A stretch of DNA of 64,000 nt from Symbiodinium natans. Taxonomy: Eukaryota; Sar; Dinophyceae; Suessiales; Symbiodiniaceae. The stretch lies in the NCBI GenBank assembly GCA_905221605.1, contig CAJNDS010002101.1, positions 189,001 through 253,000 of the forward strand, given 5' to 3'. Below are positions 2,319 through 29,915 of the stretch, in pieces (the first letter of the stretch is position 1; each line of letters starts with the position of its first letter). The notes under the pieces were generated by a model. The model was not told the DNA's origin and did not search any database. It saw nothing but the letters and a program-made list of their open reading frames with translations. The translations under genes were made by a program, and so were the position numbers.

Positions 2319-2319
2319 G

Positions 2320-9377: not shown

Positions 9378-9392
9378 AAAGCCCAAGACCAG

Positions 9393-10231: not shown

Positions 10232-10250
10232 CCTAAACCCTAAATCCCAC

Positions 10251-10540: not shown

Positions 10541-10598
10541 GGATGACTATGACGACGACGACTACTACTGCTACTGCTACTGCTTCTGCTACTACTGC
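10541..10598 (+). repeat. Trinucleotide repeat (GAC/TAC/TGC)n
   Basis: About 19 NAC/TGC-type triplets. The two small plus-strand ORFs over it are repeat translations. Confidence 0.85.
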
Positions 10599-10881
10599 AG
10601 TGATACCCCTGAGATACCCCCTTATACACCCTATACACATCCTTCAAGGAGCGAAAGGGCCATACAAAAAGACCCCATACATACTACAAAAAACTACTAC
10701 TTTGTATGTTGCTGGGTTTATGACTACTACTTGCTTCTGGAGCAAGGGCATCGTAAGGCCTACACACTTCCTCCTTTGCGCTTATGAATTGGGATAGAGG
10801 AGGGAACTTACCCCCAAAAAAACCCTCAACAAAAAGGTTTATGATTTAGGGTCCAGGGTTGAGGGCCACCGTATTTGGGTT

Positions 10882-10967
10882 TCTCTAAATGAGGGTGCCT
10901 TTTTGGGTTACTCATTTAAGGGTGCCTTGCTGGAAAGGGTACCCAAAAAGGGGCCCTGATTTAGAGA
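10882..10967. mobile_element. Foldback element M5
   Basis: TCTCTAAATGAGGGTGCC faces GGGCCCTGATTTAGAGA. Family with 30785-30882. Confidence 0.7.
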
Positions 10968-10969
10968 CC

Positions 10970-11860: not shown

Positions 11861-11862
11861 AG

Positions 11863-12174
11863 GATCTAGACCCCAGAGCAACCTAGGTTTAACAAGAGTA
11901 CCTTGGGATGTTCCCCCTTTACTAACAGTCCTTAACAGTATTATAATCACTAGGGGGCACGATAATCCCATTAAGGACTGTTACTATAAGGGGCAACCTC
12001 CCAAAGGATACCCCTTTCTTGGGCGAAAGGGGCTTGTAAGGGAACTTACTGCCCAAGAACATACACAACAAACCCTGAACTCTAAACTTCTAAACCCTAC
12101 ACCCTCACCTCAACCCTCAAACCTACCCCCCCACCCCCCAAACAAAAAAAAGGGCTACTACGTACTCTGGGTCC
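11863..12174. mobile_element. M2 foldback element carrying an M1 insertion and a telomere-like run
   Basis: The left terminus TCTAGACCCCAGAGCAACCT and right terminus TACGTACTCTGGGTCC match the ends of other M2 copies. Inside are the M1 copy at 11901-12007 and a run of CCCTAAA/CCCTCAA variants at about 12066-12120, three layers in one locus. Confidence 0.6.
11901..12007. mobile_element. M1 foldback element nested in an M2 element
   Basis: Arms CCTTGGGATGTTCCCCCTTT and its complement near 11986-12007, plus ACAGTCCTTAA / TTAAGGACTGT. It splits an M2 element (11863-12174). Flanks read GAGTACC on the left and GGATACC on the right, so TACC may be the target duplication. Confidence 0.7.
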
Positions 12175-12239
12175 TGGGGATTCAAGGCTTGAGGCGCAGG
12201 TTGGAATGGGTTTGGGGTTTGGGGTTTGGGGTTTGGGGT

Positions 12240-12404
12240 TTCGGGTTTCGGGTCTCGGTTTAGGGTTTAGGGTTTAGGGTTTAGGGTTTAGGGTTTAGGG
12301 TTTAGGGTTTAGGGTTTAGGGTTTAGGGTTCAGGGTTTAGGGTTTAGGGTTTAGGGTTTAGCTGTGCTAAAAGGGTTTAGGGTTTAGGGTTTAGGGTTTA
12401 GGGT
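12240..12404 (+). repeat. Telomere-like array, TTTAGGG orientation
   Basis: About 20 units, interrupted at 12361-12373 by GCTGTGCTAAAAG. The same GCTGTGCTAAAAGGGTTTAG junction recurs at 14046-14065. A CCCTAAA array follows at 12485-12552. Confidence 0.95.
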
Positions 12405-13045
12405 TCCTGGCCTACATCCTGAGCAGGGTCTTCAGGAAACTCGGTGGCTAGGCTTACAGTCTCCTTGCCCCTTGCCCCTGCGCAGCCCTAAACCCTAAAC
12501 CCTAAACCCTAAACCCTAAACCCTAAACCCTAAACCCTAAACCCTAAACCACCTAAACCCTAAACCGCCGCACCCCGGCTTCAGGGCCTATTAGGAGGAG
12601 TTATGCTCGCTCGCCCTTTCCTTTAAGGGAAGTCTACCTTTGGACCAAAAAAAAGTGCGGGCTTGGGCCCTGCAAGTGGAGAAATGACCATAAATCCCTA
12701 AACCCTGAACCCTAAACAAATTCGGGGGTAGGGTCTGGCAACTCAGCGAGTGGGTTGTGTTGAGGTAAGAGGTGTGAGTGCGTTGGAGGTATACGACTTT
12801 GAGTTTGAGACTATGCAGCAGAGTCCGCCAGTGGCTGGGTTTGGGGTTTGGGGTTAAGAGTTGAGGGTTTCGGGTTTAGGCTTTAGGGTTGTGCCCTAAA
12901 CCCTAAACCCTAAACCCTAAGCCCTAAACCCTAAACCCTAAACCCCTGGGGGTATCGGCTCTGGGGAGCGAGGGCGAAAGAGTCTGTTCACATGCCCAGC
13001 GCGTTCCTCCACTGACATTTGGCTTGGAAACCTTACTCTTACTTC

Positions 13046-13158
13046 TTGGCTGCACTCAGGAGGGTAGCTATAATTTTAAACTTTTAGCTGCCTTAATCAG
13101 AAACCCAAAAACCCCAAAAAAAGGTAAGGATCTAGAGTTACAGTAAAGTACCACAAAG
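13046..13158 (+). repeat. Dispersed repeat H, copy 1
   Basis: TTGGCTGCACTCAGGAGGGT at the left, GTTACAGTAAAGTACCACAA at the right. Copy 2 (15956-16066) is nearly identical in the same orientation; copy 3 (56565-56667) is more diverged. It lacks terminal inverted repeats, so it may be SINE-like or a solo fragment. Confidence 0.85.
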
Positions 13159-13372
13159 ACTTGTGCTTACTAGCCAAAACCCTAAACCCTGAGTCCTAAA
13201 ACCCTACTCTTTACTGGTTCTAATTAAGCCTAAACCCTGAGCCCTAAACCCTAAAAGAGCGAATGAGGGCATTGGTTAGTTTTCTTACGCTGGAACTTAG
13301 TGCCCAACAAGAGGGAAAGAGGGGGTTCATTGGAGGTTTAGGTTTTTTATGAGGTGCAGGTGAACAAAGCAG

Positions 13373-13415
13373 CTTCAACAAACTCAACGAGTTGTTGGGA
13401 AAGGCTCGCCCGCAG
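13373..13415 (+). CDS. Candidate exon (plus)
   Basis: ACAAAGCAG before, GTTTTTTGG after. Reads FNKLNELLGKARPQ. Probably belongs with the plus-strand candidates at 13575-13708 and 13815-13890. Confidence 0.4.
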
Positions 13416-13574
13416 GTTTTTTGGACATCTTCAGGTTTAGGGTTTCGCTCTGTGGCTTTTGGGGTGTGGGTGGGCGGGGGGGGGGCCTTGAGATTTGACT
13501 CCATTTTACACATGTCGTGCGGCGAGGCAGGTAGAGTCAATCATCCACGTGGCAAGTACTGGCAACCGGTGCAG

Positions 13575-13708
13575 AGAGCACGGGCAGGAAGACGCCCGCA
13601 GACTCAGACGAGGCACGTCACAAACAACAACAAGAGCATTTCGTGCAGGCGATGCTGCATTCGACTGGGGGTGCTTGTTGCGCTGTTTGCCTTGATGACG
13701 CATGCGGG
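13575..13708 (+). CDS. Candidate exon (plus)
   Basis: Reads STGRKTPADSDEARHKQQQE, then HFVQAMLHSTGGACCAVCLD. Cys-rich end; GT at 13709. No family assigned. Confidence 0.4.
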
Positions 13709-13814
13709 GTTTTGATCCTGGTTCCTAAACCCTAAACCCTAAACCCTAAACCCTAAACTTCTTTCTTGTGCTCGGATGGCCCGAATGCCCTCAAAAAGTC
13801 AGGCCAACACACAG

Positions 13815-13890
13815 CTACTGCTTCAACACATTTGAGCTCTGGGTCGCGACATTGAGACCGGAGGTCTTGGATGTAGGGCTGCGGGACTAG
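13815..13890 (+). CDS. Candidate terminal exon (plus)
   Basis: Preceded by a pyrimidine-rich stretch from 13757 and by CACACAG. Reads YCFNTFELWVATLRPEVLDV then GLRD and TAG at 13888. Confidence 0.35.
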
Positions 13891-14101
13891 GGTCAGTGCT
13901 CCGGGGCTTAGGGTTCAGGGCTTAGGGCTTAGGGTTTAGGGTTTAGGGCTTAGGAAACCAGGGTTCTGCAGCTTCCCCCCAAAAGGTTCAAGAAATTAAA
14001 GCTTACCCACTCAGCTACTAAGGTAAGGTACCTAAACCTTCACTGAGCTGTGCTAAAAGGGTTTAGGCTTTAGGGTTTAGGGTTTAGGGAAAACCCACAA
14101 T

Positions 14102-14272
14102 TTACGAAATAGGGTCCCTTATAAGGAAGAAGAGAAATTTATCTACGTCCCAAAAACACAACTCAGTTGAGCCATCTTTGAAGTAGTCCCGGACCCAGGC
14201 TCCTGGCAGTAAAGTCTCCGGCTCATCTGTGCAAACTGAAGCAAAACCAAATCTTGCTTTGGCCTTGGGTAG
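14102..14272 (-). CDS. Candidate terminal exon (minus)
   Basis: 57 codons including TAA. Reads LPKAKARFGFASVCTDEPET, LLPGAWVRDYFKDGSTELCF and so on. The acceptor AG lies in GTTTAGAG just after TTTAGGG units, so here the array precedes the exon in TTTAGGG sense, opposite to most others. No family recognised. Confidence 0.5.
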   Translation of the reverse strand, partial: LPKAKARFGFASVCTDEPETLLPGAWVRDYFKDGSTELCFWDVDKFLFFLIRDPIS

Positions 14273-14311
14273 CTCTAAACCCTAAACCCTAAACCCTAAT
14301 TATTAAAAAAG

Positions 14312-14400
14312 GGGATCCGAAGTGTGGTCCCTTACTTTGGGTCCCGTGTTACATCGCCCTTACATACCCTATACATAATAAGGGCCCATACTTCGGATTG
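14312..14400. mobile_element. Foldback element M8
   Basis: GGATCCGAAGTGTGGTCCC faces GGGCCCATACTTCGGATT. Sequences of the same type (…AAGGGCC…ACTTCAGAA…) occur near 1040-1165, 32390-32505, 40270-40390 and, reversed, 53525-53640. Confidence 0.6.
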
Positions 14401-14944
14401 AGGGTTCATTAGTCCAGAGGCTTTGGCCAATAGCCTAAACGGTTTAGGGTTTAGGGTTGAGGGTTTAGGGTTTCGTTAACCCTCAACCTTTAGGACATAG
14501 TTCTTTCTTATGCATTTAGGTGGTAAACCCTAAACCCTAAACCGTAAGCCCTGAGCCCTGAGCCCTCATCCTCAACCCCGAACCATAAGGATGTTTCCGT
14601 GTTTATAAAGCTCCTTGAGCTGTGTTCCGGTGGTATAAACTCCAAAGCCCTAACCTTAAGCGCGAAGCACAAAAGCAAAATAATGCTATGTTAATAAACT
14701 CGACCCACAGGAGTTTAGGGTTTAGGGTTTAGGGTTAGGGCTAGACCCAAGAGGAATCTGCGAATGAAAAACGGCGTCCTTTTTGGAGTTCACAGGGGCT
14801 TCTGAAAGGAACCTCAGCCCTGAAAAAATGAAGGACTAAGGGCCTACTCTGGGTCCACCCTAAACCCTAAACCCTAAACCCTAAACCTTAAACCCTAAAC
14901 CCTAAACCCTAGTCTACCTTTATAGAGCTCCTTTCGAATCCTAG

Positions 14945-14984
14945 CAAATCTTGAGCGGAGCCCGCGGCGACAATCCGGAGACTG
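14945..14984 (+). CDS. Candidate exon (plus) with GTAAGT donor
   Basis: GAATCCTAG before, CTG|GTAAGT after. Reads QILSGARGDNPET. A CCCTAAA array (14855-14910) lies upstream and a TTTAGGG array (15039 on) downstream. Confidence 0.45.
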
Positions 14985-15038
14985 GTAAGTCGACAGCTCA
15001 CTTCGACTCATTTCTTCACCTCGTGTCGCGCATGTGTG

Positions 15039-15180
15039 GGGTTTAGGGTTTAGGGTTTAGGGTTTAGGGTTTAGGGTTTAGGGTTTAGGGTTTAGGGTTT
15101 AGGGTTTAGGGTTTAGGGCTTGGGGTTTAGGGTTTGGGGTTTAGGGTTCGGGGTTTGGGGTGTAGGGTTTGGGGTTCTGG
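15039..15180 (+). repeat. Telomere-like array, TTTAGGG orientation
   Basis: About 12 perfect units, then TTTGGGG variants. It lies downstream of a plus-strand exon candidate ending at a GTAAGT donor (14985). Confidence 0.95.
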
Positions 15181-15187
15181 GGTATAC

Positions 15188-15229
15188 AAGTGGGCGATGG
15201 CCCGGATGAACAGGGGGCAGGCCACTCGC
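15188..15229 (-). CDS. Candidate exon (minus)
   Basis: AG before, GTATACC after. Reads RVACPLFIRAIAHL. Confidence 0.35.
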
Positions 15230-15842
15230 CTTACCTGACTCCCTACGAAACAATGAACTCTAACCCCCTCCACTTTCCCTAGACCATAAATCCTAAACAA
15301 TCCCCTAAACCCTAAACCCTAAATCCGACACCCTAAGCTTTAGGGTTCCAGGGGGTTTAGGGGGCCTAGGGTCTTAAGCCCTGAACCCAAGTCTCCTTGT
15401 CCTGCACAGACCCGGGTGTTTGTTCCTCTTTTGTTTCTACTGGTTCTCGTTTAGGGTTTAGGGTTTAGGGTTTAGGGTTTGGGGTTTAGGGTTTAGGGTT
15501 TAGGGTTCAGGGGTCAGGGTTCAGGGCATGAACTTGGAACCCTGGCAAAAACTGCAATTCTAGTTTTTCCTTAGGAATTGCCGGGCCTATTCCCAAGAAT
15601 TCCTCTAAGTAAGATTCTTATCTTAGTATGGAATGAGGGAGTTAGGTACCTTACACCCCCGCCCATATATATATATATATATACACATATATATACACAT
15701 CAAATAATATTATCTATATATACATATACGGATAGATCGATAGACCCTGTAAAGGATTTCATCGTGTACCTTCCTCCCTCATTCCCTACAAAAAACCAGT
15801 AAGTCTTTTGGGAGATCCCGTTTAGGCCCAAGATTTACATAA

Positions 15843-15889
15843 AGGGGGGGGAGGGGGGGGGGGGGGGGGGGGGGGGGGGAGGAGGGGGT
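15843..15889 (+). repeat. Poly-G tract
   Basis: A run of G about 45 bases long with four A interruptions. Confidence 0.93.
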
Positions 15890-15955
15890 TCTTAGACCCA
15901 AAGGTAATTGCATCCTAGGGATCCAGAGCATAAAGCCCGAAACCCTGTACTTAGG

Positions 15956-16066
15956 TTGGCTGCACTCAGGAGGGTAGCTATAAATTAAACTTTTAGCTGC
16001 CTTAATAAGAAACCCAATAAACCCAAAAAAGGTAAGGATCTAAAGTTACAGTAAAGTACCACAAAG
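15956..16066 (+). repeat. Dispersed repeat H, copy 2
   Basis: Differs from copy 1 at 13046-13158 by a few substitutions and short gaps over about 111 bp. Confidence 0.85.
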
Positions 16067-16227: not shown

Positions 16228-16232
16228 GGGTA
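16228..16232. repeat. Target-site duplication GGGTA, left copy
   Basis: GGGTA sits directly against the left LTR and recurs directly outside the right LTR at 29911-29915. Five bases is the usual Ty1/copia duplication. The uninterrupted site would have read TTCATGAAGGGGTATTCC. Confidence 0.9.
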
Positions 16233-16378
16233 TATAGTTTGGGAAATCCACCAGTTGTTATCCGTTAAGCCATGAGCAGGGGCGCGCCTAACCTTTTTAC
16301 TCAGAGGGCTTGAGCGGCACAAATAAGTGCAACATACATGGAAGCAAAAGTGGAGGGAATGCACAGATATAAAATACA
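16233..16378 (-). repeat. 3' LTR (146 bp)
   Basis: Identical to the 5' LTR at 29765-29910. Preceded in element orientation by the GAGGGGGG tract at 16379-16386. Short plus-strand reading frames that start inside it are not genes. Confidence 0.93.
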
Positions 16379-16386
16379 CCCCCCTC
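16379..16386 (-). promoter_or_regulatory. Polypurine tract GAGGGGGG
   Basis: On the element strand GAGGGGGG ends exactly where the 3' LTR begins (TGTATT). This is where the plus-strand primer of reverse transcription is expected. Confidence 0.75.
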
Positions 16387-16675
16387 GTTGAAGCGTGAGA
16401 ATGCTGAAACGCAGTCAACGAATCCACGGCAAGCACTACGTGCTGCATTTTGCTCTTCTACTGTATGTTCAAAGTGCGCTCACCCGAGTTTTAATTCAGG
16501 TTCAACGCCACAGATCACCGCGCACCAGCTTAAGAAATTTGAAACGCTGGCGGGGATACAAAGGTGGCTCGTGCAATACGGTGGTTCACTCAGCATCGAC
16601 CTCAAAAGGAAAGGAAAACAGAGCGTTGTGGTCAAGATGCTAAGCTACTTTATCAGAAAAGGCGGAACTCAGGAC
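16387..16675 (-). other. 3' untranslated region of the retrotransposon
   Basis: 289 bp between the ORF3 stop and the polypurine tract. I see no conserved motif. Short plus-strand ORFs here are antisense noise. Confidence 0.6.
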
Positions 16676-19600
16676 TCACCAGCTGCGATCTCGATGGTCG
16701 TAGCGCCAAGGTCCACGGGAGTGCTCCGTACTGCGACTCCCCGAGCTCCACCAGGATCCTTGATCCTGCCACTGGCGATCACGCCAGGAACTTGAGGAAT
16801 GCCAGTCGTCCTGCGACCAAGAGTTGTCGCTCCACGACCAGCCACGATTCGTGTCACGATCGGCCTCCCCATAACGGGGGGCATTTTGCGGTGCCTTTCT
16901 AGCATCCGCCCGCGCCTGAGCGGCCCGGGACGCTTCTGCCGATTCCTTCATCTTTCGGCACGTTTCCTTTGCCCCACCATAATTCTCAGAGAGGATCTCG
17001 GCCAAAAAGACTGCCAGATGCTCTTCCTCATCGAAGTCCGGGATGCCAATGATGCCCTCCGTGAAGGTGAGGATGTGGGAAACCGCACGGGTGACGCGGA
17101 TGATCCGGGCGAATTCCTTCACGCCCATGAAGTTGCCGAGCCAAGCGTAGCCCATAGGTTCGAGGTTGGGGTCGTCGATGAGGCCGGCCAGGACGAGATC
17201 GTCGGCATTCTTGTCGAAGAACGCCATGCGAGCCAGGCCCTCATGATTGACCTTTTTATTCTCCCAGGCCTTGTTGGAGCCGTAGCCCAACTCACGTTGT
17301 TCGCGGGAACGACCTTGATTGGGAAGATAAGCGCATGCCACGCAGTCCTGAATGGTGAGCCGCCTTCTCGTCCAGCCGCCCTTGATAGCGTGGATCGCGT
17401 AGGTGTCGTCCTGGTCGAACTTGTCCACCATCGACGTGTAGCCGTGCTTCATGAAGCCTTTGAGATTTTGTCGTGCCAACATGATAGCTCGGCCATCTAC
17501 GCTCTGCTGTCCCCTCAAATCATGCGTTCCAGCGGCCTGGCGAATCTTCGCGGCATCCATCTCCCAAAGGCCCTTTCCAAACTGCTCTGCCAGGGCGTCC
17601 AAGACATGGGAGCGCTCACGCGCCATCCACATTCTGAAGGCACTCTGGGTGGCCCCACGGGTGACGTAGTAGCCGCAGTGGAAACACTTATGCTGACCTT
17701 CGAGACGAAGCTTGCCACAATTGACGCACTGAATCTGCGTGATTTCCCTCTTCCATCCAGGACGCGGCGCTTGTGTTGCCGGTGCCGTAGAGCGGGTAGC
17801 CACCCCTTCATCAGGGACCACTTGCAACTGACCTTCAGTCAAACGGTTCCTTCCTGAAGGCGACACCTCGATGACATCGGCGTCGGTGTTGAAGCGAACG
17901 TGTAGAGGTGGAAGTTCAGGAACGGTGCTCTCGACCTCCTCAAGGATGGGAACGTCGAACTCCTCCTTGACCAACGGGGCTTCTTCATGCTCGACACCAA
18001 GCTCCTCCTGCACTTCTTGGAGAGGTCCCGCGGCTTCAACGACCATGCTTCCGGAAGATTCGGCCTCCTCTATATGAGGGGCATTCTCTTCCTCCTCCTG
18101 TCCCTCAGGTCCATCCGCGGCAGACCACAAGATTTCATCGGTCCTTGTGTCGCGGATGTAGAGAACCGTCGATCCAGAGATCGCTTCTCTGCAGAGGACG
18201 CCCTCTGACCGTGAGTAGAACAGTCCAGCGCCTTGCCTGAGGGCATCCATGGTGTTGACGACCACCTCCACGGGGCGATCGCTTCTCACGCCAGGGACAT
18301 TTTCTCCCGGCCCTACCTCCCGGTCGGCAAAATACACAAAGGCATTCGCGGTGTGGTGCCCGGGGATAAAGCAGGAGTCCAAGATGGCAAAGGCTCGATC
18401 CTTGTAGGTGCGGTGGTAGAGCCTGCGTGGAATCTTCTCCAGGGGCAAAACCGGCCGACCTTCCCAGGTGGCAGAATGCTCATCCATCTCTGCTTCTGGG
18501 ATCATGCTGAACCAGGCCTCCGCAAGGATCGAGTCGGGCACCCCTTTCATAGCATCTTTGGAGATGCCTTGGTTCGCCCTAATAAGGGTAGGGTAGCCTC
18601 CTAGGCCGTAGTACTCGGCGAGGGGGTGGTTGCGGTCAATTCGCAGCTGGAACCTGCTGCGGTTGTCGTTCTTGACGACAGTGAGGAGCATCCCGAGGCC
18701 ATAATCCTTGTTCGTCTTCTTGTTCCAGGCCTCGAGGATCTTCCTTGTAGAGCACCACAATCCATCGCCCTGCAGACCTGGGACGACCTTGCCGCGGACA
18801 ATACCGGACAAGGCAGTCTTGTGATGCTGGGGAATGTGGACATACTTGAAGTTCGGCATCTCGTCCTGAAGGATGTCAATCCACTCGGCCTCACCTTCCG
18901 GTGGGCATAAATGGATTGTGTCCCAGTCGAGGCCCAACATATCGACGAGGCACCAATCGTCATCGGTTGCGTAGTAGCCGGACTTGATGGGCTCGTCGTA
19001 GACAGCCTCGTGTGGGCCCTTCTTTGCCCGTTTGGGGGCACTGGACTCAGGGTCGGTCCGCTGACGACTGTAGACCTCCCCCCTGGCCAAGAGCTTCTCC
19101 TTAGTCTCCCGCGCCGTTGACGACGATGACGGAACAACGATGGCCTCCCCTGGACGGGGGGCATTTTCCTCGCTCTTCTTGATCATCTCGTCGTAGTCCT
19201 CGCGGGTAACATATTCCCCATCTCCCAGGTGAACGTGGTCCTTGAAGTCCCGGTGGACAAAGTGGTTCGGCACGGTATCGGGGAACTGCTCCTGGGGTCC
19301 TTGGAAGTAGATGTCGTCCCACGGGTCAGCCTCGACAAGCGGCTGATGTGTGGGCTCTACCCTTCCTTTACGGAAGTGGTTCAGGAGCTTCTCCTCCACC
19401 TGCACGTCCACAGCGAACTTGACGTTAGGCTTTGAGACGTGGCCGTAGTTCTGCAGGACCAGGTCGATGTCGGCTTCCTTGAAGAAGGAGCATTGGTGAC
19501 GAAGGACCATAATCCTGGCGGTAAAACCCAACCACCTCAACAGCTGCAAACGATAGGCGCTGTCCTCCTGGAAGTGAAAGTGGTCGAATTTGCGGATCTG

Positions 19601-21730
19601 GCTCGCAGGCGTGTTGAAATGCTTGACGGCCAGCCCAAGTTGGGCGGCGTAGTCGAGCAAATCCGCCATGATGGTACCCCACTCGCGCGGGAGGTAGTAG
19701 TTGGCAGCGTCGGTCGCAGACGTGAGCAGCACAGTACCCACTGACGCCCGTGACTGTAGATCCGCCAACTTGCCTATCTCTCGGAGAACCTTTGGTCCAA
19801 TGAACTCCCAGCTCCCCTTTGCCATGTGCGGGTAACCACGAAGCCACTCCGTCTTGCTCTTGAAGCCTGGGTCCAAAAACAGACCTCTGTCGCCGACGAA
19901 CTCGTTCCCGTTCCAGATCATCATGAGGTCAATGCTCACCTGACCACTGGCGCCAGTTTCACGCTCCAGTTGGGTGATTTTTCCCACGGCGAGCTCTACG
20001 AGCCGCGTGAGATTCGCACCCCATGTAGGAATGTACTCAACGCCAAGATGATGTGGGAACGCATTGCCGCGGTTGGCCTTGATGTCTGCCAGCAGATCTG
20101 TCTTCCAATTTCCTTCAGTGAGGAACGTAGTTGTAGAGTCTGCGACGATGACAAGGTAGCGCAAACGGCCTCGAGTAGACTCGGGCTGGAGCATGGCCAA
20201 GCCTTGATCGGTGAGCCTCCCAATTTTGGCCACCAAACCAGCCTCCCTGACGTCACTGAGGGCATATTCGCATGCCAGTGGCCGCGGCAAATATTTGTAG
20301 AAGTTGTTCACGCTGGCTTCATCCTCCTGGAAAGGCGCCATGGTGCGGTATTCGGAAGACAATGAAGTCTCCCATAACCGCCGATCCCACCACTGGCGCA
20401 GGACCTCCGTCGGTGCAACGATTCCAGCGTTGGTGGCTTCCATGTCCGGCGCGCAGAAAACTGCCGCGAGAATGCAGCAGGCAGCTAATGCGTTAGTTTG
20501 TTCAGTTTTGTGAGTGCAGGCGTGTTTGTGGTTACACGAAAATTGTTGTTGTGCACATGCCGCATAATTAGAACGCCTATCGCAAAAGCTTTTCCAATCA
20601 ATGTGGATGCAATCAGTCATGGCATGTGAATAGTTCTCACTGTCCTTAAGGTCCTGGCCTCTAGACTCGCCATGAACACGACTGCGATCACACTTGTGCG
20701 CTGCCAGCCGCTGCAATGGAATCGACGACGCAATGGTCCAAGCTTTCCTTAGTGGTAATCCTTGGTGATTCGTAATCCCCAACATGCAACCATCGCAACG
20801 GTAGAACTCAAGTCCAAGGTCATTAACCATATGTTGAACATGGCCCCACTTCCAATAGTCGCAATCCTTAGGGAGTTCGAAGGCAACCTGTGGTTTGTAC
20901 TCTTTGAGCTTTCCAATGAATTTTCGGAACTGCTTGAGGAGTTTGTGAAACAGTTCCCGATGCTGTTCCCACTTTGGGCTGTCAGGCGTCATGCGATTCC
21001 ACGGACAACCACCAGTACACGGAAGCGACGCATAAACTAAAATTGGCTTAGATGCTCCCCCCTCGTCGCAGAGGGTACTAATTTGCTGAACAACTGAAGT
21101 CAATGTAGAGTCTTTCAAGACGTCATCCTTACTGGTGAGTCGCAACACATAACATCCTTGACGTGCGCTACGATCCTGCCCTAGTTTGCTGTTGGGGGAG
21201 CAACAAAACTCGACTATGATGCGTTTGAACCCCAACGGCCTCGAGTATTCTCGGGCAGTAGCAGCGCTGGCCGTGCGTGGGGGCAGCCTGAATCCGAGCG
21301 ATTTCAAAGAAGCGAGCTCTTGATCTTGTAGGGCGTCTTGTGATCGAGAGGTGTACGCAACAATGGAGAAACGTGTTCCAGTGAAAGGTAACACACAGTG
21401 TAAATTTCGCGGATCAAAGATGATGGCTTGATTCAGGGTGGACACAGCACGACCCTTAAGGCGCTTACCATTGGGGCCGACCCTAACAATAGCATCTTCA
21501 GATGAAACAAGGGGGTCCGCAAACCAAAGCTCACCATCTTTGAAATCCCCGACACTGAGGGCAAAGCTCATGCTATCCTTAGCATTTCCATGGTCTTTGT
21601 GCACAGAGGCACCACTGCAGCTATTAAGCAACACCGAATTCCATGTGAAGTCCTCAGGAGCATGGGCTTGCACGACTCCATTTAGGAAGCGGGCAAATCT
21701 GAGGCCACCGACGTGTAGCCTTAGTCACCC
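16676..21730 (-). CDS. ORF3: multidomain accessory protein with 2OG-Fe(II) dioxygenase and methyltransferase-like domains
   Basis: 1665 residues from a GTG at 21673; the frame opens upstream at about 21730 and lacks a convincing AUG, so it is probably translated by +1 recoding from ORF2. Numbers count from 21673. H25-K-D27, H92 and R101 form the HxD...H...R signature of 2-oxoglutarate/Fe(II) dioxygenases. Residues about 150-350 resemble a cytosine-5 methyltransferase fold: EFCCSPNSKLG near 155, SLPCTGG at 216-222 (Pro-Cys), FELP at 265-268. About 505-600 resembles an SGNH hydrolase (VADSTTTF, MMIWNGNEFVGD). About 1080-1175 (LYHRTYKDRAFAILDSCFIP) resembles KptA/ADP-ribosyltransferase folds. 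A C-x2-C-x10-C-x2-C zinc ribbon lies near 1313-1333. The C-terminus is Trp/Ser/Arg-rich. The dioxygenase call is fairly firm; the other domain calls are inference from short motifs. Confidence 0.75.
21654..21730 (-). promoter_or_regulatory. ORF2/ORF3 +1 overlap, candidate recoding region
   Basis: ORF2 ends ...AGC CCA TGC TCC TGA. ORF3 lies in the +1 frame and is open only after the TGA codon near 21730, so any shift must occur within these 77 bases. The end itself is TCC-TGA, the same two codons as the +1 shift site of ornithine-decarboxylase antizyme mRNAs. Another possibility is an earlier shift at CAG-ATT-T, which would join the protein-like stretches TKATRRWPQI and ARFLNGVVQAHAPEDF. A one-base indel mutation gives the same picture. 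Confidence 0.45.
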
Positions 21731-24700
21731 CTTGCATCCCTCCGTAAGACCACTGCCCAAAGATGTGGTAGTAGCTGCGATTGTCAAGCTTAATCATCTT
21801 TCGCTTGGTTTTGTTGGGGTACATGATCTGGGCTACACGCAATAAAGCCTTAGTACTGAAGTCACGGTCCTTGGTAAGCTCAGCTGCGACTGCGCAAGGA
21901 TCTCCCGACGGCTTCACCACGGGGTGAGCATGAACGACAGGCTTGTTGATGAGATGAGCATCGGACTCGTGTGCCTTAGACTGCCGTCCCCCCTGAAGAG
22001 GAGCATCGACGTGCGCGATGAGCCTAAGAGCATGTTCCCATTTACCTCGGTCAGCGAAAGGTTTGGTAAAGATATCAGCTACTTGCTCTTTGGTGTCAAC
22101 ATTAATCATTTCGAAGAAGTTACGCTCGAACTGTTGTTTGATCCAAGCAAACGAAATGCGTTGAGTCCGATCGGTGTGACGTAGTTTTTCGCTGTCACCT
22201 TTGAGGAGAATGGTGATGGTAGCTTGGTTGTCCTCAAGGAGTTGAACAGCAAACTTGGGGCTAAGGTGGACCTTGAGGCCGTTTAAATCGGAAATGCTTC
22301 GTCCATCCGCCCTACACTCACCATAACGGATCTCATCAAGTTCAGGATCAATTCGTGCAATGATGTCGTTTTCCCTTTGATTAGATTTGGTTTTCGGCCT
22401 AGCTTGGTAGCTGGCGGTCCTACTCGCAACCTCACGCCACAGGAAAATCCAAAGACTGAGGCTGGGCAGACCCTGGGCACGAATACCTTGGTTGGCAGCC
22501 ACAACCTCACTCTCCGTACTTGAAGTGGTGATGCTGGTCTGTTTCTTGGAAAAAGCATTTAGGGGAAAGTAAGTATTGGGGCCTACCAAGTAAACGGCAC
22601 AGCCTGAAGTGGATTTACTGTCGTGGCTACCAGCGTGGTCAGCATCGCAGAACATCCACAACTTACAATCCTGAATGCGATCCCCTATGAATCCCCTCAT
22701 CCGAACTTCAAGAGAAGAGTTTATGTAACTGATCAACCTGTGCAAAGCAACGTCACAGTCGCGAGACCACTTGGTGACTCTGGATGCCAGTGCCTGAGTG
22801 GCGCGTAACAAGTCCCACCTGGCCATTCTCGCAGCGAACAAAACCTTCATGAGTACGCGGCTAGCAATAGGTTGCAGCTTACCACTAGGTTCATTGTTCT
22901 CCAGAACTTTTGCTACCCGGTTCTCATGAAAAGGAGTCGCTACGTGCTTCAGGGATTTCTTGTCGACCTTGGCCAACTCACAGTACCTATCAACACAGGA
23001 CACCAAGAAATCCCGCATGTCGTAGTACACAACGTTCACGGGCACAGTCATGGAAGGGGTCTTTCCCTGACTGATAGATTCAGTGCTCTTGAACTTACTC
23101 TGTCGTGCTTCTCGTTTAGCTTCGGCTTGGGACCGCTTGGGTTTATTGTGCTTAGCTGCGAGAGCATGAGAAAAGTCCTCGTCACTGACCTCTGTGATAG
23201 GGAAATATGTTCTCCCAGTCCACCAACCTGATTGGTTCGCGGGGCCCCCCTGATTCAAGTCATCATGGATAGGGTCCCTACCATCATCAAACACCGTGAT
23301 TCGTTGGCAGCTTATGTGGGGAAATTTCGACACGTCGTCCTGTGTAGGCACATAAAGTTTCCTACGAGGATAGATGTGATGCCTAACGACTGCAGCTAAC
23401 TCAGCGTCGACCTCCCAGAAGTCCTCTTTGCGATTCGGCCGGACTTGGTAGTCGGCAGCTGGGCTAGCGTGCTTCTTGTCGAAGACGTAAGCAAATGGGT
23501 GGTCCTCCCGTGAAAGCTGGACCTGATTTTGCTCAACGTGATGACACCCGAAGTACCGTCCCAAGACCTCGGCTGGTTCCATGTCAATCACCTTAGCGAT
23601 CAACTCCCAACCTTTGTTGATTTTGTCTTGGGGGCCGGCCATCTTGAAGTCATCAACGTACACAACAAGCAACAAATCTAGTTCAGCATGGTAGAAAACA
23701 GAATGCCAAATGTCGGGTAGAACTGCAGTAAAACCAACACTCTCTAGTTGTTCGGTACAGTACCTTTCCCAGATACCACCTGAGTCAGGGTGGCCGTACA
23801 AAGCGAGCCTGAGTGGGCAAACAGGATCTTCATACCCAGACCATTCTTTAGGCCATCTGTTTCGAGGGAGACGGACCCACGTTTCGATGCCTTTAAAAAG
23901 GGCTTGTGTGTATGCAGCAATGCCATCAGCCTGCTGTTTCACGTACCCGGGTTGGCTACCAAACACATCGATGATTTTCCCGGCCTCCATACTAGCGGGG
24001 CTTGATCCTAGTTCGGCGACAATGGCGTGATCGTGATTTTCGTCCTGGACGTTGTTGCCCTGGAAAACACTACGACCCTTCCATTTCTTCTGGGGGTGCC
24101 CGTCCGGGAGTTCATCCCCCTTGACCGAACAAATCTCAAAGATTTTCCCGAAATGGGCCTTGACATTCTTGTGTTTGGCTTCCGCCGCAACATCCCGGTA
24201 CTCTCGAACCTTCTTCTCGAGCCAGCAAGACTTATCGGCAAGTTTCTTCCACTCTCGGTCCATGGCTTCTTTAGCAGCGGGAGTACTTTCGATCTCTTTA
24301 GGCCCGACAACCCTGGCAACAGCAGCAAACATCTCACTCGCAACCTGACCAAGTTTGGCCCAATACAAGGACGCCATGCGATCCCTATGGGGCTCGGGGT
24401 CAGGCTCGGCGATGACAGGCATGGCCGGGGAGTCTCTAAGGGCCTTGCGAGCATCTTCCTCGGCTTCACGAGCCTTCTTGCGTTCGAATCTTTCAATGTC
24501 AGCCTCCCGTTGTGCCTTGGAATACATGTGCCAAAATTCCGAAGGAGTATCAGGTGGCCTTTTGGAACCTTTCTTATCTCTAACCAACCTCACCCCGTCC
24601 CAGTTATACCCTTTGGGGACTTTCTTCCCGTCAGGCATGGTTTTGGGGTCATGTCTTGGTAGAGTAGATGAGGCCTTAGGCACGGATGTTGCTTCCTTAG

Positions 24701-26340
24701 AAGATCCAGGAGCATCCCTCCCCAGCCAGTCCTCCACAGCTCCGACATCTTCGGGAACATAGTCCTCGTTTTCCTTAGCCACTTGGTCCAAGTACTCGGA
24801 CAAACGATCCTTCAGATCGGAGCCGTCCAAATCAGGCACACCGGGCGGAGGCAAAGGCTCGTCCGGCGAATCCCCAGGCGGGGCGCGTGGTCCGGCACCA
24901 TCTGTGCCTCCCCACGAGCAGTCCTGATCTGCGAGGGTCGGCTTACGGAGGCTCTCCTGCAGTGCGAGCTGTTCGGATCTCATTGGGAATGTGAAATCCC
25001 CAGGCAACAGCTCCATTCGCTTCGACCTCAGGATGGGAAAGTTTCCTATCTCGAACGCAAAGTCACAACCCTTAACGGGGGTGACGAGGTATTCCTCCTT
25101 CCAAACGAAGCCAGGCTGAACGTGGTAACCAAGAAATATTCCCTCAACACCGGTCGGCGCAAACTTAGAGCTCGCAGGAATGTTCTGTTTGGGGTTGTTC
25201 CAGTACAACACACGTGCACCAAAAGGAATCATGATCCCTGAAAACGGTTCCCCATACCTGGCCTCCCAGGGAACAATCCCGTTGTCAAGCCTCTTAGTTG
25301 CATTAAGTGCCATCGCGTGGTGTTGGGCGGCCAACGGCCAAAGCTTGTCGGGGAGACCCGCCTGAACAAGGTTGGAGCGGGTACCCTCCAAAATCGTCCG
25401 AATTTCTCTTTCGATTACCGACTTGTTGGTGTCCACATATTCGCGGGATGTAACATGTCGGACACCTAGGCTTTTGATAGCGGCATGAAGTTCAGGTGCG
25501 TTGTCTGAGTAGAAAACGCCAACTGCATCTTCTTGACCTAGGAAGTGAAGAAGGTCTTCAAAACACTGATCGCTTGACTTAGTCGGAGAGGGGTAGACGT
25601 AACGAAATTTGGTGAACACGTCCTTAACAACAAGTGCGACCCTTTCGTCCTGGAACCCATGATCACGAAGGTCACGAGTGATAATATGGTCAACAGTGAT
25701 GTGATCCCCAAAGGCCTTTGACACAATGGTACTTGAGCCCCCCTTTTTGCGGGCTTGGGGAGCCAACATCTTTGCGCGCTGACATACCTCGCAGAACGGA
25801 TTCTTGGGCCTGTGCGAGAACAAGTGCTCAACAGATTTGGCTTCAGCTTTCAGATCGGCCTCTGCAAGACTGCGGGCGTTTCCTTCGTTGTCACTGTCAG
25901 GTTCAACATCGGGGTCTTCGAAGATAGTGAGGCTCAGGATTGGGTTACCCTCCAGTCGGGCAACTTTGTTGTCAAGCTCCCTGACGTTCACTTTATCCTC
26001 AACCTTGACCCAAGAACCTTCCCTGAACAACCAAGTAGATCTGACTTCGCATCTTGGAAACCTTGGTGTGGCAGTACGAAACGTCTTTGGTTTGTGTCCG
26101 ACAATCAAGTACTTAGCATTTGGGTGCGAAACCCAACCTGGTCGTTTGAGCTTCTCTTTGGGGATATGTATCGGCGGCACCTCATTGATGGCTGCGGAGA
26201 TCTCAGGATCGGGGTGCTCGACCACTGGATCTCGTTCCTCTGCTGCTCCTGCGAAAGCCTCGGCCGGCCCTATTGGGCGGCAGTTTTCTGAAAACCCTCG
26301 GACAAAATTGGTCGTCCGAGAGAACCTGAGGCTTCCTCCT
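21654..26340 (-). CDS. pol: ORF2: Pol polyprotein (integrase, reverse transcriptase, RNase H)
   Basis: The frame is open from upstream of the slippery site (at least 26340) to TGA at 21654. Its first conventional start candidate is only a GTG at 26225, so expression by -1 frameshifting from ORF1 is likely. Positions below count from 26225. An HH-CC zinc region (HLFSHRPKNPFCEVC) is near 132-146. The integrase core has DHIITRDL near 175, YSDNAPEL near 236 and IERE near 271, giving the D-D-E triad. The copia-type reverse transcriptase has LALYGHPDSGGIWERY near 795 and the YVDD box near 853. RNase H has FCDADHAGSHDSKSTSG near 1190, STESE near 1237 and ADIFTKPF near 1380. The last 70 or so residues (FGQWSYGGMQGVTKATRRW) look like the start of the dioxygenase continued in ORF3. 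Confidence 0.92.
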
Positions 26341-29300
26341 TAGTGCTTGGAGCGGCCATTGCTCCTCCCCCTAGCACTGGGACCATACCTCTCATTCTAC
26401 ACCTTAGTCTTTGACCATTGGGCGCAACAAAGTAAGGCGGCCTTTTGGGGTACCAGTGGAACTCATAACCGTCCTCCATGCACCTTCTGCCTACGGAGCA
26501 AACAGGAGGGGTGCTGTTGAGAACATAGAACTCTAGCTCTTTGCCAAACTCCGGGAAGTCGATCCTAACCGACTTGTCACCTTTGACGTTACCATTAGCA
26601 GTGATGAGATTCACTTGTCGTGTTGCATTGCCTACTGGCTCTTCGCCGAAGTACATAGCACGATCAGCTTCGCTGATAAGGTCCTCCTCGCTTCCTGTGT
26701 CAGCAAGGAATTCTAAGGGTGTGGCGATCCCTGGACAAGCGATCTCTGAGCTCTCAACGACGTGCTTGCACATCCCACACATTAGAGAATCAGGCTCATC
26801 ACACTCTAAATGGCAATCGGTCTTCTCTCCCCCCTCATGCCGGGCAAGAAGCATCTTGAGTTCCCTTGCGTTCCTAATTGCAACCTGAAGGTCGATAGCG
26901 TCAGGCTTAGGGCAGTTTTCCGCATCAGCATAGCAAGTATTGTACCTGCGAACTTTGTAGGAATGTTTGTACCCCTTTCCCTCAAAAGGGATTTCCCTGA
27001 CTTTAGGTTTGTCGCAAAACCTGACCTTCTTGTTTTGTTCTTTGATCTTGAAAACAGTCTTGCCGGTCCACGGCATCTTATCGCCGGTTCCCCCTCTTCC
27101 CTCTTTCCAGTCCCAGTTCTCCTTTGCAGTGTATGGAGAAATGGGAAGCGTCTTGATCACTTTGGCCTTACCCTTCAACCTTTCAAGAGCAACAGGACAT
27201 GACACTTCGGGCTTGTACATAGTACTTCTGTACTTCAGATGGTGCCTAACAGCTTCACCCCTTTTGAAGTCTACTTCCCAGTAGTCTTCGTCCCCATCTT
27301 GTGGTTCACTCTCATCAGGACCAGCTGAGGCTGCAGCCGCAAGCGAGATGCAGCATGCGGCCTTCCTATCCTTTTCCTTAGAGCGTCCACGGCTTGGTTT
27401 CCTGCGCGTTGGCGCGGGTGACGGGGACCTTGGTTTGTCTGGGCCCTTAGGGGCCGGGGCTGCGTTTTCACCACCTGGGGGAGCAGGGCTCGGTTCCCTA
27501 TGCAAGAAACGACACTTATCTCCCCTAGTGCACTTTCCCTTCTTCCAAAACGTGCAGACCTGTTTCTTCTTCGGTGCAGTGCGAACAGGGGATTGTGAAC
27601 GTGGTTTGTGCGAAAACTTGCACTTGTCACCCCTGGTGCACTTACCCTTTTGAAAGTCGTAGCAAACTGGCTTTGGGCTTTGCGATCGGCTAGGTGATCT
27701 AGATCTGGATGGGGTCCTAGAGCGAGACCTTGACTTTGAATTGGACTGGCTACCGGCAGAGCGATCCCTTCCGCGGCCGCTCCTCGACGGAGGGCGTGTC
27801 GGCCTTCCGCCTTCAACAACAGGAGCCCCAAACTTGTCCCCATGTGACTTGGCGATTCTATCCCTGTTCTTGCGCATCCTCTCACGGGTCAACAAATCCC
27901 GGATTGACTTCAACAAGAACGCATAGGAGTGTGAGGCAGAACCCTCTTTCGCCCTGTCGTAGATTTCCAAATCATACTTCATTCTTGAGGACTTTCGGAT
28001 TTGCCGAAGAAGGATGTCACGCAGAACCATTTCTTCTGGGACATGACTCATGCCAGCAATGACTGATTCCCAATTGTGCAGAAATGTGGTTAGATCGTCA
28101 CTATGCAGTGTAACCTTCAAAAGGTCTTCTACCGAATAGAGCGATCCTACCTCTTCATTTGTTTTGAAGTACTGATCAAACATGAGCAAGACCTGGCGTC
28201 CTCGTACGGCACGTCCTTGAACCGCCTCGGTTTCCTTGAAAGTGAGTACCTGTCGAGATAACTCACCTTTGGCGACCTTAGTGAGAGCGGCTAGGATTTT
28301 GGTATCCAGCGTGAGAAACTTACCGGGCTCACGAAGCTTGTCATGATCAGCATTCTTAGAATACACCTCTAGAATCCAAGAGAAGGCTTCATCTGGTCTA
28401 TCTGAAGCTGCCCTAACTGCTTCCCGTGTTGCGGTTTTCCATGCACGGTAGGTTTCGGGGTTAGGGAAATCCGGCAGGCGGATGGTTTCAGCTTCTTTAA
28501 CCTTTGGTTTGTCATCTTCACCGCTTTTGTCTCCTTTAAGAAGCTTGGCGGCTTCAAGCAGCGCTTGCTGCGTCTGTGCGATTAAATCGGCTCCTGTGGC
28601 TGCCGGACCTCCCGGCGTGCCTGTTGGGGCCGCAAGACCAGGGGCTCCGGCGTTCAACCCACCACTAGAGAACCCTAGATTTGGGACGTTAGCTGATGCT
28701 GTTGGGGTCCCTGGGGCAGAAACCGGACCCTGCGGTCCTGTTGGAGTGGCAGTAGTTGCCACACCGCCAAAACTGAAGTTTGGAAACAATGCCCTGATGT
28801 TCATCGGAATCACACTCGGATCTGAAAACTGAGGGGCACACGGAGCACTACGCCCGGCGCTTGGCGCTGGAGCAACTGGGGCAGTGGCGCTGGGAAACTG
28901 AGCTTGCTGCGAGGGATTGATACCTAAATTCCTGTCCTGTTCGAGCTGGAGCGCACGCTCCATTGATGACAATTCATCTTGGAGGGTCATGTTTTGAATC
29001 CTCATTTGCTCTTCAGTTTCCAGGGCTATACTGCGGTACCTTTTCATTGCCTCATCATGCTCTCTTCCGAACCATTCCCCAATCTCGTTAATGCTTTCCC
29101 TCTTGTTCTGTTCAGCCTCTTCAACCAGAGTTGTCCTGAGACGTGTGATTTGCGAACCAACATCGGAAAAATGTTCTGACTGAAAATTGATTATCTGGCT
29201 TTGTTGCTGGAGTTCTGAAAAGAGACCTTGGGTCCTCGCGACAAAGCTATACCTTTGGCTAGCAATTTCAGACTCAAGTCTAGCAACGACTTCCTCGTGC

Positions 29301-29701
29301 TGCCTGTTAGCCCTTTCTTCAACATCTGCGATTTGTTGATCATGGGCTTCTTCAGCAGCTAGGCGGAACCTCTGGTGCCTGGACTCTGCTTCGTTCTCTA
29401 ACTCAGTGAGGAGAAGTCTTGTTTGTTCAGGTGTTTCACCTATCGTAATGTTCTGCTGGAACTGTTGTCGGTACATGTGGATCTGCGGAGCTCCTAGTCC
29501 TACGAAAGGAGAAGGTGCGTTTGGCGCAAACACATTAGCTGCTGCTGCATTCTCTTCCAGCACTAGGCCACGGCCATCCGTAGACGGTGGCATAGCCAAA
29601 GTGCCTGAGAGGTCCATCTCCGCGGATTCTGCGTCTGTAAATCCGTCTGTACCGAGATCAGTTGCTACCTCGGTGGGGACCAGCTCGGGGCTGTCACCCA
29701 T
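26270..29701 (-). CDS. gag: ORF1: Gag polyprotein with CCCH fingers and aspartic protease
   Basis: 1143 residues from a true ATG 63 bp inside the 5' LTR. Residues about 70-265 are Gln/Glu-rich and look like coiled coil. Residues about 400-610 resemble the helical copia Gag core (RLPDFPNPETYRAWKTA...). A basic Arg-Ser stretch follows at about 620-675. Two zinc fingers follow, each C-x7-C-x5-C-x3-H (CYDFQKGKCTRGDKCKFSH near 680 and a second near 715). This is the CCCH class of RNA-binding finger, not the retroviral CCHC knuckle. Near residue 1000 is LADTGSEEDLI, the Asp-Thr-Gly active site of a retroviral-type aspartic protease, so protease is in the Gag frame. The ORF ends GFQKTAAQ-stop just after a -1 slippery site. 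Gag packages the RNA; the protease would mature the polyproteins. Confidence 0.9.
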   Translation of the reverse strand: MGDSPELVPTEVATDLGTDGFTDAESAEMDLSGTLAMPPSTDGRGLVLEENAAAANVFAPNAPSPFVGLGAPQIHMYRQQFQQNITIGETPEQTRLLLTELENEAESRHQRFRLAAEEAHDQQIADVEERANRQHEEVVARLESEIASQRYSFVARTQGLFSELQQQSQIINFQSEHFSDVGSQITRLRTTLVEEAEQNKRESINEIGEWFGREHDEAMKRYRSIALETEEQMRIQNMTLQDELSSMERALQLEQDRNLGINPSQQAQFPSATAPVAPAPSAGRSAPCAPQFSDPSVIPMNIRALFPNFSFGGVATTATPTGPQGPVSAPGTPTASANVPNLGFSSGGLNAGAPGLAAPTGTPGGPAATGADLIAQTQQALLEAAKLLKGDKSGEDDKPKVKEAETIRLPDFPNPETYRAWKTATREAVRAASDRPDEAFSWILEVYSKNADHDKLREPGKFLTLDTKILAALTKVAKGELSRQVLTFKETEAVQGRAVRGRQVLLMFDQYFKTNEEVGSLYSVEDLLKVTLHSDDLTTFLHNWESVIAGMSHVPEEMVLRDILLRQIRKSSRMKYDLEIYDRAKEGSASHSYAFLLKSIRDLLTRERMRKNRDRIAKSHGDKFGAPVVEGGRPTRPPSRSGRGRDRSAGSQSNSKSRSRSRTPSRSRSPSRSQSPKPVCYDFQKGKCTRGDKCKFSHKPRSQSPVRTAPKKKQVCTFWKKGKCTRGDKCRFLHREPSPAPPGGENAAPAPKGPDKPRSPSPAPTRRKPSRGRSKEKDRKAACCISLAAAASAGPDESEPQDGDEDYWEVDFKRGEAVRHHLKYRSTMYKPEVSCPVALERLKGKAKVIKTLPISPYTAKENWDWKEGRGGTGDKMPWTGKTVFKIKEQNKKVRFCDKPKVREIPFEGKGYKHSYKVRRYNTCYADAENCPKPDAIDLQVAIRNARELKMLLARHEGGEKTDCHLECDEPDSLMCGMCKHVVESSEIACPGIATPLEFLADTGSEEDLISEADRAMYFGEEPVGNATRQVNLITANGNVKGDKSVRIDFPEFGKELEFYVLNSTPPVCSVGRRCMEDGYEFHWYPKRPPYFVAPNGQRLRCRMRGMVPVLGGGAMAAPSTKEEASGSLGRPILSEGFQKTAAQ
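26291..26297 (-). promoter_or_regulatory. -1 ribosomal frameshift heptamer G GGT TTT
   Basis: In the Gag frame the element strand reads GAG GGT TTT CAG, so G-GGT-TTT fits the X-XXY-YYZ rule exactly. Slipping back one base enters the ORF2 frame, which is open from upstream of this point and reads on as SENCRPIGPAEAFAG into integrase. Gag terminates 8 codons later. A GC-rich palindrome (GGCCGGCC, 26262-26269) lies about 21 bases downstream and could be part of a stimulatory structure; I have not folded it. Confidence 0.7.
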
Positions 29702-29749
29702 GCACTGAGTTGAAACTCCAGGTCAGTGGTGCCGCAAGCTCCGGGGAGC

Positions 29750-29764
29750 CTACGGCTGATAACC
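29750..29764 (-). promoter_or_regulatory. Candidate primer-binding site
   Basis: Immediately inside the 5' LTR the element strand reads GGTTATCAGCC. This resembles the TGGTATCAG primer site that many copia elements use to pair with initiator tRNA-Met, with one extra T and without the leading T. Position is right for a primer site; the priming tRNA is not established. Confidence 0.4.
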
Positions 29765-29910
29765 TATAGTTTGGGAAATCCACCAGTTGTTATCCGTTAA
29801 GCCATGAGCAGGGGCGCGCCTAACCTTTTTACTCAGAGGGCTTGAGCGGCACAAATAAGTGCAACATACATGGAAGCAAAAGTGGAGGGAATGCACAGAT
29901 ATAAAATACA
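29765..29910 (-). repeat. 5' LTR (146 bp)
   Basis: In element orientation it begins TGTATTTTATATC and ends CCCAAACTATA. A TTTTATA box lies within the first 12 bases. It matches the 3' LTR at all 146 positions. It is short for a copia LTR, and no other promoter element could be recognised in it. Confidence 0.93.
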
Positions 29911-29915
29911 GGGTA
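29911..29915. repeat. Target-site duplication GGGTA, right copy
   Basis: Partner of the GGGTA at 16228-16232. The pair fixes the element boundaries and so the LTR ends, which read TG...TA in element orientation instead of the commoner TG...CA. Confidence 0.9.

Follow-up and report, generated by a model that had tools for sequence, protein, structure and literature searches.

A Copia-type retrotransposon of Symbiodinium natans with a multidomain Pol extension that may modify the element's own nucleic acid

A Ty1/copia-type long terminal repeat (LTR) retrotransposon lies on the minus strand of a 64,000-nucleotide stretch of the dinoflagellate Symbiodinium natans genome (assembly GCA_905221605.1, contig CAJNDS010002101.1, positions 189,001 to 253,000; hereafter the window, in whose numbering all positions are given). 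It is complete, spans 16233-29910 (13.7 kb), and encloses a long open frame, here called the cargo, which forms a C-terminal extension of Pol of ~1,650 residues. The cargo comprises, in order, a predicted 2-oxoglutarate (2OG)-Fe(II) dioxygenase, a C5-methyltransferase fold, an SGNH hydrolase fold, a KptA/Tpt1-like domain, and a zinc ribbon. We propose, with a confidence that falls a little short of even, that this extension with its four enzyme folds and zinc ribbon is packaged along with Pol and modifies the element's own nucleic acid. A C5-methyltransferase fold and a TET-like fold stand side by side in a Copia family, fused to Pol, under selection, and in many copies; this offers a concrete candidate source of the unusual DNA modification of dinoflagellates, and a case in which a retrotransposon may write epigenetic marks and not only suffer them.

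The Pol extension and its element

The cargo frame and its domains are as follows, with residues numbered along the stop-to-stop translation of the cargo (P0002):

16676..21724, minus strand: cargo frame (the C-terminal half of Pol in other copies), open from stop to stop; a GTG start gives 16676-21673
21275..21700, minus strand: predicted 2OG-Fe(II) dioxygenase domain, residues 9-150, with H42, D44, H109, and R118
20555..21247, minus strand: C5-methyltransferase-fold domain, residues 160-390, with C236 and E283
19445..20284, minus strand: SGNH hydrolase-fold domain, residues 481-760, with S530, G569, N607, and H717
18080..18874, minus strand: KptA/Tpt1-like domain, residues 951-1215, with the Pfam match at 990-1179
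16925..17749, minus strand: zinc ribbon and C-terminal region, residues 1326-1600
17669..17728, minus strand: the zinc ribbon itself, residues 1333-1352, with C1333, C1336, C1347, and C1350

An original prediction made from the letters of this DNA counted from the GTG, and its H25, D27, H92, and R101 correspond to H42, D44, H109, and R118 here. The pattern it had described, H-x-D...H...R followed by EFCC, SLPCTGG, and FELP, is present in that order, as are the SGNH-like, KptA-like, and zinc-ribbon segments.

A search of the S. natans genome (759 Mb) with the cargo gave 29 matching rows. Of these, 12 fall within a single open frame exactly 3220 amino acids long, i.e., Pol plus cargo, with an internal stop in one of the 12; two further rows have frames of 3214 and 3222 amino acids. 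Sixteen long copies besides that of the window are 95-99% identical to the cargo. The end of Pol and the cargo share one frame in 16/16 fetched copies, with 1500 open Pol codons preceding the junction in 13 of these and a break further upstream in the other three. Protein searches recovered 47 relatives, numbered P0006-P0052, whose clusters hold as many as 522 members, and the junction is likewise read through in all seven examined relatives that span it (P0006, P0009, P0010, P0011, P0013, P0015, and P0016, all deposited gene models). Among the copies examined, that of the window alone has a frame shift at the junction. Because Pol reads into the cargo in frame in 16/16 copies, the cargo is the C-terminal part of Pol and no separate gene; its earlier description as a third open reading frame (ORF) fits the window copy, where it does form a separate open frame, and not the fetched copies.

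The extension is also maintained. Eighteen listed catalytic or zinc-binding residues are unchanged in 16/16 sequences, namely the window and the 15 fetched copies of equal length (the sixteenth, L022, differs in length and was excluded from this count). The ratio of nonsynonymous to synonymous substitution rates (dN/dS), computed along a minimum spanning tree of the 11 copies with all frames open (excluding the window, L022 for its length, L029 for a stop in the cargo, and L025, L027, and L030, whose Pol slices are out of frame), is 0.135 for the dioxygenase, 0.182 for the methyltransferase-fold domain, 0.145 for SGNH, 0.116 for KptA, and 0.124 for the zinc ribbon with the C-terminus. The linkers have 0.26-0.39 and the tail 0.29, while the cargo as a whole has 0.18 and Pol 0.094. 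Purifying selection on the whole cargo has a binomial p of 2e-75 over these 11 copies. Since the catalytic residues are kept in 16/16 sequences and the dN/dS of the domains is 0.12-0.18, the cargo is no passenger and is under purifying selection. The H-x-D, H, and R residues of the dioxygenase, whose loss under neutral drift had been considered beforehand, are among those retained throughout. A dead passenger or a chance reading could be argued from the faster divergence of the cargo than of Pol in four of five pairs of relatives; yet with the whole-frame dN/dS well below 1 and the catalytic residues invariant, this explanation is scarcely credible and we reject it. Between the window and P0006, identity is 92% in Pol (ORF2), 80% in the dioxygenase, and 68% in the methyltransferase-fold domain; the exceptional pair is P0012/P0013, with 71% identity over 70 shared residues of the Pol tail and 83% in the dioxygenase.

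The remaining parts of the element are:

29911..29915, minus strand: upstream copy of the 5-nt target-site duplication TACCC, recognized by eye
29765..29910, minus strand: 5' LTR, 146 nt, TG...TA, 100% identical to the 3' LTR
29745..29764, minus strand: putative primer-binding site adjoining the 5' LTR, assigned by position only
26270..29701, minus strand: ORF1, gag-like, with two CCCH zinc fingers and a DTG protease motif near its end
26291..26297, minus strand: GGGTTTT, candidate -1 slippery heptamer where ORF1 and ORF2 overlap, correctly framed in the window
21654..26339, minus strand: ORF2, the Pol part, with integrase, reverse transcriptase (RVT_2), and RNase H, the first and last placed by eye
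16379..16386, minus strand: polypurine tract GAGGGGGG adjoining the 3' LTR, recognized by eye
16233..16378, minus strand: 3' LTR, 146 nt, 100% identical to the 5' LTR
16228..16232, minus strand: downstream copy of the 5-nt duplication TACCC, recognized by eye

The paired LTRs, target duplication, putative primer site, and polypurine tract are as expected of a Ty1/copia LTR retrotransposon, and we take the element to be a complete, recently moved, and autonomous-looking one. In Pfam, ORF1 matches zf-CCCH (E 3.2e-12) and, below cut-off, Asp_protease_2 (E 0.11), while ORF2 matches RVT_2 with 25.1 bits (E 1.6e-5) against a curated cut-off of 31.6, which the relatives P0008 and P0019 far exceed (83.6 and 67.4 bits). 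Pfam gives no integrase match in ORF2; the segment ahead of the reverse transcriptase aligns with residues 1133-1391 of P0007 and is integrase-like by eye only. The GGGTTTT heptamer occurs in 16/16 fetched copies (scored for presence, with the frame checked in the window copy), and the 80 nt downstream of it contain no significant stem (z +0.28). Rfam gave 0 matches, and the dinoflagellate spliced-leader sequence had 0 matches within the window.

The dioxygenase and methyltransferase-fold domains

From its predicted fold and catalytic residues, we call the first domain a TET-like 2OG dioxygenase, and not a member of the TET/JBP family. H42, D44, N47, H109, and R118 are invariant across 12 diverged rows, where H42, D44, H109, and R118 fall among 13 invariant columns of an alignment with 45% mean column identity; in 19 diverged rows the four positions are kept in 18 (H), 19 (D), 17 (H), and 19 (R). 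An AlphaFold2 model of cargo residues 1-400 (15-row alignment) has a mean predicted local distance difference test score (pLDDT) of 84.3 and a predicted template modeling score of 0.60. In a Foldseek search of the PDB, the Coprinopsis TET protein CcTet accounts for 12 chains at ranks 1-11 and 13 (E 2.9e-5 to 5.3e-4), and the same protein is the top match of a PDB profile search with 12 rows (E 0.18). A library of viral folds returns a GDSL lipase first at low TM-scores, followed by 2OG and cytosine-methyltransferase proteins.

Several results pull the other way. TM-scores for CcTet are only 0.18-0.21, with a root-mean-square deviation of 5.4-10.5; a three-row profile of the domain loses CcTet and finds no 2OG oxygenase; and the VIA-align listing for the model is taken up by the methyltransferase part, leaving the dioxygenase outside its reach. 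The Pfam family Tet_JBP is matched in two of 12 rows, at best with E 0.0057 and 16.3 bits in P0016, where the cut-off is 34.9 bits (E 0.13 in the other row). Among 29 E. coli proteins, the dioxygenase profile finds its best match in YbiX, a PKHD-type hydroxylase (E 0.0016). A search of the S. natans genome for Tet_JBP gave 0 matches, as it did for the controls, and is uninformative. The kinship with TET and JBP enzymes suggested earlier thus extends to the H-x-D, H, and R residues and, with low TM-scores, to a TET-like predicted fold, and not to a significant profile match.

The YbiX match bears directly on a different assignment, in which the domain would be a protein hydroxylase of the PKHD/P4H type and the cargo would modify proteins, either the element's own Gag or chromatin proteins of the host. 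The HxDxxN and H...R patterns occur in prolyl hydroxylases too, and after CcTet the Foldseek list continues with PiuC and PHD structures from E 8.6e-4. CcTet nevertheless comes first in both the fold and the profile searches of the PDB, and in P0016 Tet_JBP outranks 2OG-FeII_Oxy_3 (E 0.0057 vs 0.067), each of these being a weak indication; moreover, the domain adjoins a C5-methyltransferase fold. On balance we consider a protein hydroxylase improbable.

For the second domain, the assignment as a C5-methyltransferase is based on the predicted fold and the catalytic residues. The model has the class I methyltransferase fold of the C5 type, and among the 50 rows listed by VIA-align for residues 1-400, 49 are named C5-methyltransferases. 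Across 41 diverged rows the Cys of motif IV is kept in 40 (one gap) and its Pro in 38, and the Glu of motif VI in 40 (Asp in one). The domain represents a C5-methyltransferase-like family that Pfam leaves unnamed in 13 rows.

The evidence from sequence profiles does not favor this assignment. FxGxG is the S-adenosylmethionine (SAM) loop of C5-methyltransferase motif I; Dcm and the majority of the phage enzymes compared have it. Here it is absent by eye, and E-x-C-C occupies the position (E and the first C in 39/41 rows with two gaps, the second C in 37/41). For the 13 rows, Pfam returns no methyltransferase family and only two unrelated weak matches. Compared by hhalign with a profile built from Dcm of E. 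coli and six phage C5-methyltransferases, the domain reaches a probability of 0.3%, and single C5-methyltransferases score no higher than the controls (28 other E. coli proteins including Dam), of which malQ and nfuA outscored every one of them; the best local match, in which PCT aligns with PCQ and the Glu of FELP falls close to that of ENV, likewise does not outscore the controls. A PDB profile search and hmmsearch yield nothing significant, and NCBIfam and PHROGs leave the domain unnamed for the one sequence tried. What supports the earlier C5-methyltransferase claim, then, is the predicted fold with the Cys and Glu motifs; the SAM loop is absent, and no profile similarity is significant.

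C5-methyltransferases carry an acidic residue in motif II, where an Arg is found in 37/41 rows within the stretch read as this motif. Together with the E-x-C-C, this would suit a domain that has kept the C5-methyltransferase fold, has given up SAM, and now flips bases or binds nucleic acid. The catalytic Cys and Glu are each retained, however, in 40/41 rows and in 16/16 genome sequences, something that binding alone would not require, and we give the SAM-free alternative a low probability. Within residues 311-351, a DGC and a C-x3-H-x-H are kept in most of the 41 rows (C 38, C 35, H 31, H 34) and are a possible metal site, which would be unexpected in C5-methyltransferases.

The SGNH, KptA, and zinc-ribbon parts and possible substrates

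The SGNH domain retains its D-S, W-G, G-N, and D-x-x-H blocks, invariant and in order, in 5/5 rows, and the fold is recovered by structure search of a second model (mean pLDDT 56; sound only in the SGNH and part of the KptA domain); Pfam and PDB profile searches with this part give nothing relevant. The KptA-like domain is the only one of the cargo above its Pfam cut-off (PF01885, 34.7 bits vs 26), with 53 bits in P0012 and a sub-threshold 18.6 bits in P0014, and structure search of this part matches tRNA 2'-phosphotransferase. The R-H pair of its N-terminal lobe, whose role in KptA/Tpt1 enzymes is catalytic, is altered, the Arg being kept and the His replaced by Gly in 3/3 rows. The zinc ribbon matches Zn_ribbon_3 below cut-off (E 0.0056), with the four Cys kept in 16/16 sequences, and the ribbon with the region behind it resembles the C-terminus of P0014 (blastp E 2.3e-4).

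As the cargo is fused to the C-terminus of Pol, it would be packaged, entering the particle with reverse transcriptase and integrase, genomic RNA, primer tRNA, and newly made complementary DNA (cDNA); its likely substrates would therefore be these three nucleic acids. There it might methylate, oxidize, and possibly further decorate the bases of the element's nucleic acid. The adjacency of a methyltransferase fold and a TET-like oxidase suggests that a base methylated by the former could be oxidized by the latter. For the SGNH and KptA folds, possible roles are the attachment or removal of acyl or ADP-ribosyl groups, or the mending of RNA ends. Such marks would shield the cDNA or the new copies from nucleases, silencing, or mutation by the host. 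The idea that the element encodes its own marking toolkit is thus partly supported, as far as fused, conserved, and selected enzyme folds go, and not as regards membership in the C5-methyltransferase or TET/JBP profile families.

A more specific version of this proposal is that a single polypeptide holds a whole base-hypermodification pathway, with C5 methylation, oxidation of the methyl group, and acylation or ADP-ribosylation of the resulting hydroxyl all carried out on cDNA or RNA of the element itself within its virus-like particle. We regard it as speculative and rather doubtful; if true, a eukaryotic retrotransposon would carry a counterpart to the DNA-hypermodification gene sets of phages.

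Alternatively, the module might act on RNA (the genomic RNA, its ends, and the tRNA primer) and not on DNA. KptA/Tpt1 is a family that acts on RNA ends, and it supplies the only cargo domain above a Pfam cut-off; LTR elements rely on a tRNA primer, for which a putative site adjoins the 5' LTR. The dioxygenase of orchid gypsy elements, too, acts on RNA N6-methyladenosine (m6A) (PMC9289625; here and below, statements on the literature refer to the available portions of the cited papers). Set against these points, the top-ranking fold match for the dioxygenase is a TET protein solved with DNA duplexes, and KptA has R-G in place of the R-H pair. We therefore see action on RNA as unlikely, though as an alternative to be taken seriously, and extend a similar reserve to the individual roles it would imply, namely that KptA removes or ADP-ribosylates a 2'-phosphate, that the methyltransferase domain makes 5-methylcytosine as Dnmt2 does on tRNA, and that the dioxygenase oxidizes or demethylates RNA bases.

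Relatives, surroundings, and known systems

Among the 47 relatives, our own profiles find the methyltransferase-fold domain in 43, the dioxygenase in 20, SGNH in 12, and KptA in two, counts that treat whole and partial domains alike and are circular for the seed rows; absences mean little, because many relatives are short gene models. The methyltransferase-fold domain is placed elsewhere in P0007 (between integrase and reverse transcriptase) and P0008 (before the integrase), the integrase being recognized by eye. In the Symbiodinium proteins P0019 and P0020, which belong to other Copia elements, the dioxygenase precedes the integrase region (by eye), a placement suggesting repeated gain or relocation of the domain. 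P0018, an EukProt transcript, has a dioxygenase followed by a stretch that by eye resembles a decayed C5-methyltransferase (hhalign probability only 1.8%). Trees of the reverse transcriptase, methyltransferase-fold, and dioxygenase domains broadly agree for close groups but contain several long branches, and none of our conclusions draws on them. No related DNA was found in the viral contigs or prokaryote genome contigs scanned, and P0012 has no phage match.

Elsewhere in the window, dozens of (TTTAGGG)n/(CCCTAAA)n arrays, from a few tens to ~500 bases long, occur on both strands at 1-16000 and 30000-58000, and none of the listed arrays (score 80 or more) lies inside the element; TTTAGGG is the dinoflagellate telomere unit, common to plants too (PMC11453091), and along with the Symbiodinium relatives P0019 and P0020 the arrays are in keeping with a dinoflagellate host. 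A short direct repeat (13076-13158 and 15985-16066, 88-93% identical, 2.9 kb apart) ends ~170 bases before the element. Another pair of gag-like frames lies on the plus strand at 58288-64000, with CCCH fingers, an MLLE domain (E 6.7e-7), and a weak match to WW; it runs open to the window edge and is perhaps the 5' part of a further element. A 250-amino-acid frame called at 39060-39686 is probably explained by a tandem array there of the 11-nt unit GTAACGGAGCT.

Judged mostly from titles and the openings of abstracts, with incomplete coverage of journals and preprints, the literature yielded no description of this combination of domains. In Breviolum, 5-hydroxymethyluracil is reported to be enriched on most repeats (PMC11071213). 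The original prediction had taken the capture of cytosine methyltransferases by copia elements of dinoflagellates as known; the published account instead places the retrotransposon-borne DNA methyltransferases (DNMTs) of Symbiodinium in long interspersed nuclear elements (LINEs) and DIRS retrotransposons, with de novo CG methylation, and describes its Copia elements as lacking any DNMT domain (de Mendoza et al., 2018, PMC5890265). Like SymbioLINE-Dnmt and SymbioDIRS-Dnmt3 (PMC5890265), the present element is a dinoflagellate retrotransposon carrying a C5-methyltransferase fold with its catalytic residues kept; unlike those LINE and DIRS elements with canonical, Pfam-detected DNMTs, it is a Copia element with a divergent domain, missed by Pfam, beside a dioxygenase, SGNH, and KptA.

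With the fungal TET+ DNA transposons described in 2025 (PMC12730594) it shares the presence of a TET/JBP-type dioxygenase in a mobile element, but those are DNA transposons and Helitrons, whereas ours is an LTR retrotransposon outside fungi with a likeness by fold; that survey, in its available portion, found no retrotransposon with a TET/JBP dioxygenase. The orchid Ty3/gypsy ALKBH5-like elements (PMC9289625) are likewise LTR retrotransposons with a captured 2OG dioxygenase, for which m6A demethylase activity is reported from an assay, and the same plant survey lists 15 uncommon domains in gypsy as opposed to Copia elements; they are, however, gypsy elements with a single AlkB domain, in contrast to a Copia element with a TET-like domain and four domains in all. 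Retroelement SGNH domains with intact catalytic residues are also found in ORF3 of bdelloid LTR elements (GDSL/SGNH; PMC5408684) and the ORF1p esterase of the LINE ZfL2-1 (PMC3905857), where they form an ORF3 or gag-like protein, whereas here SGNH is the third of four enzyme domains in a Pol extension. Finally, the KptA-like domain resembles the KptA/Tpt1 RNA 2'-phosphotransferases (PF01885) in its above-threshold match, its fold over 110 residues, and its IRANQG motif, and differs from them in lying within a retrotransposon polyprotein and in having Gly for the His of the R-H pair.

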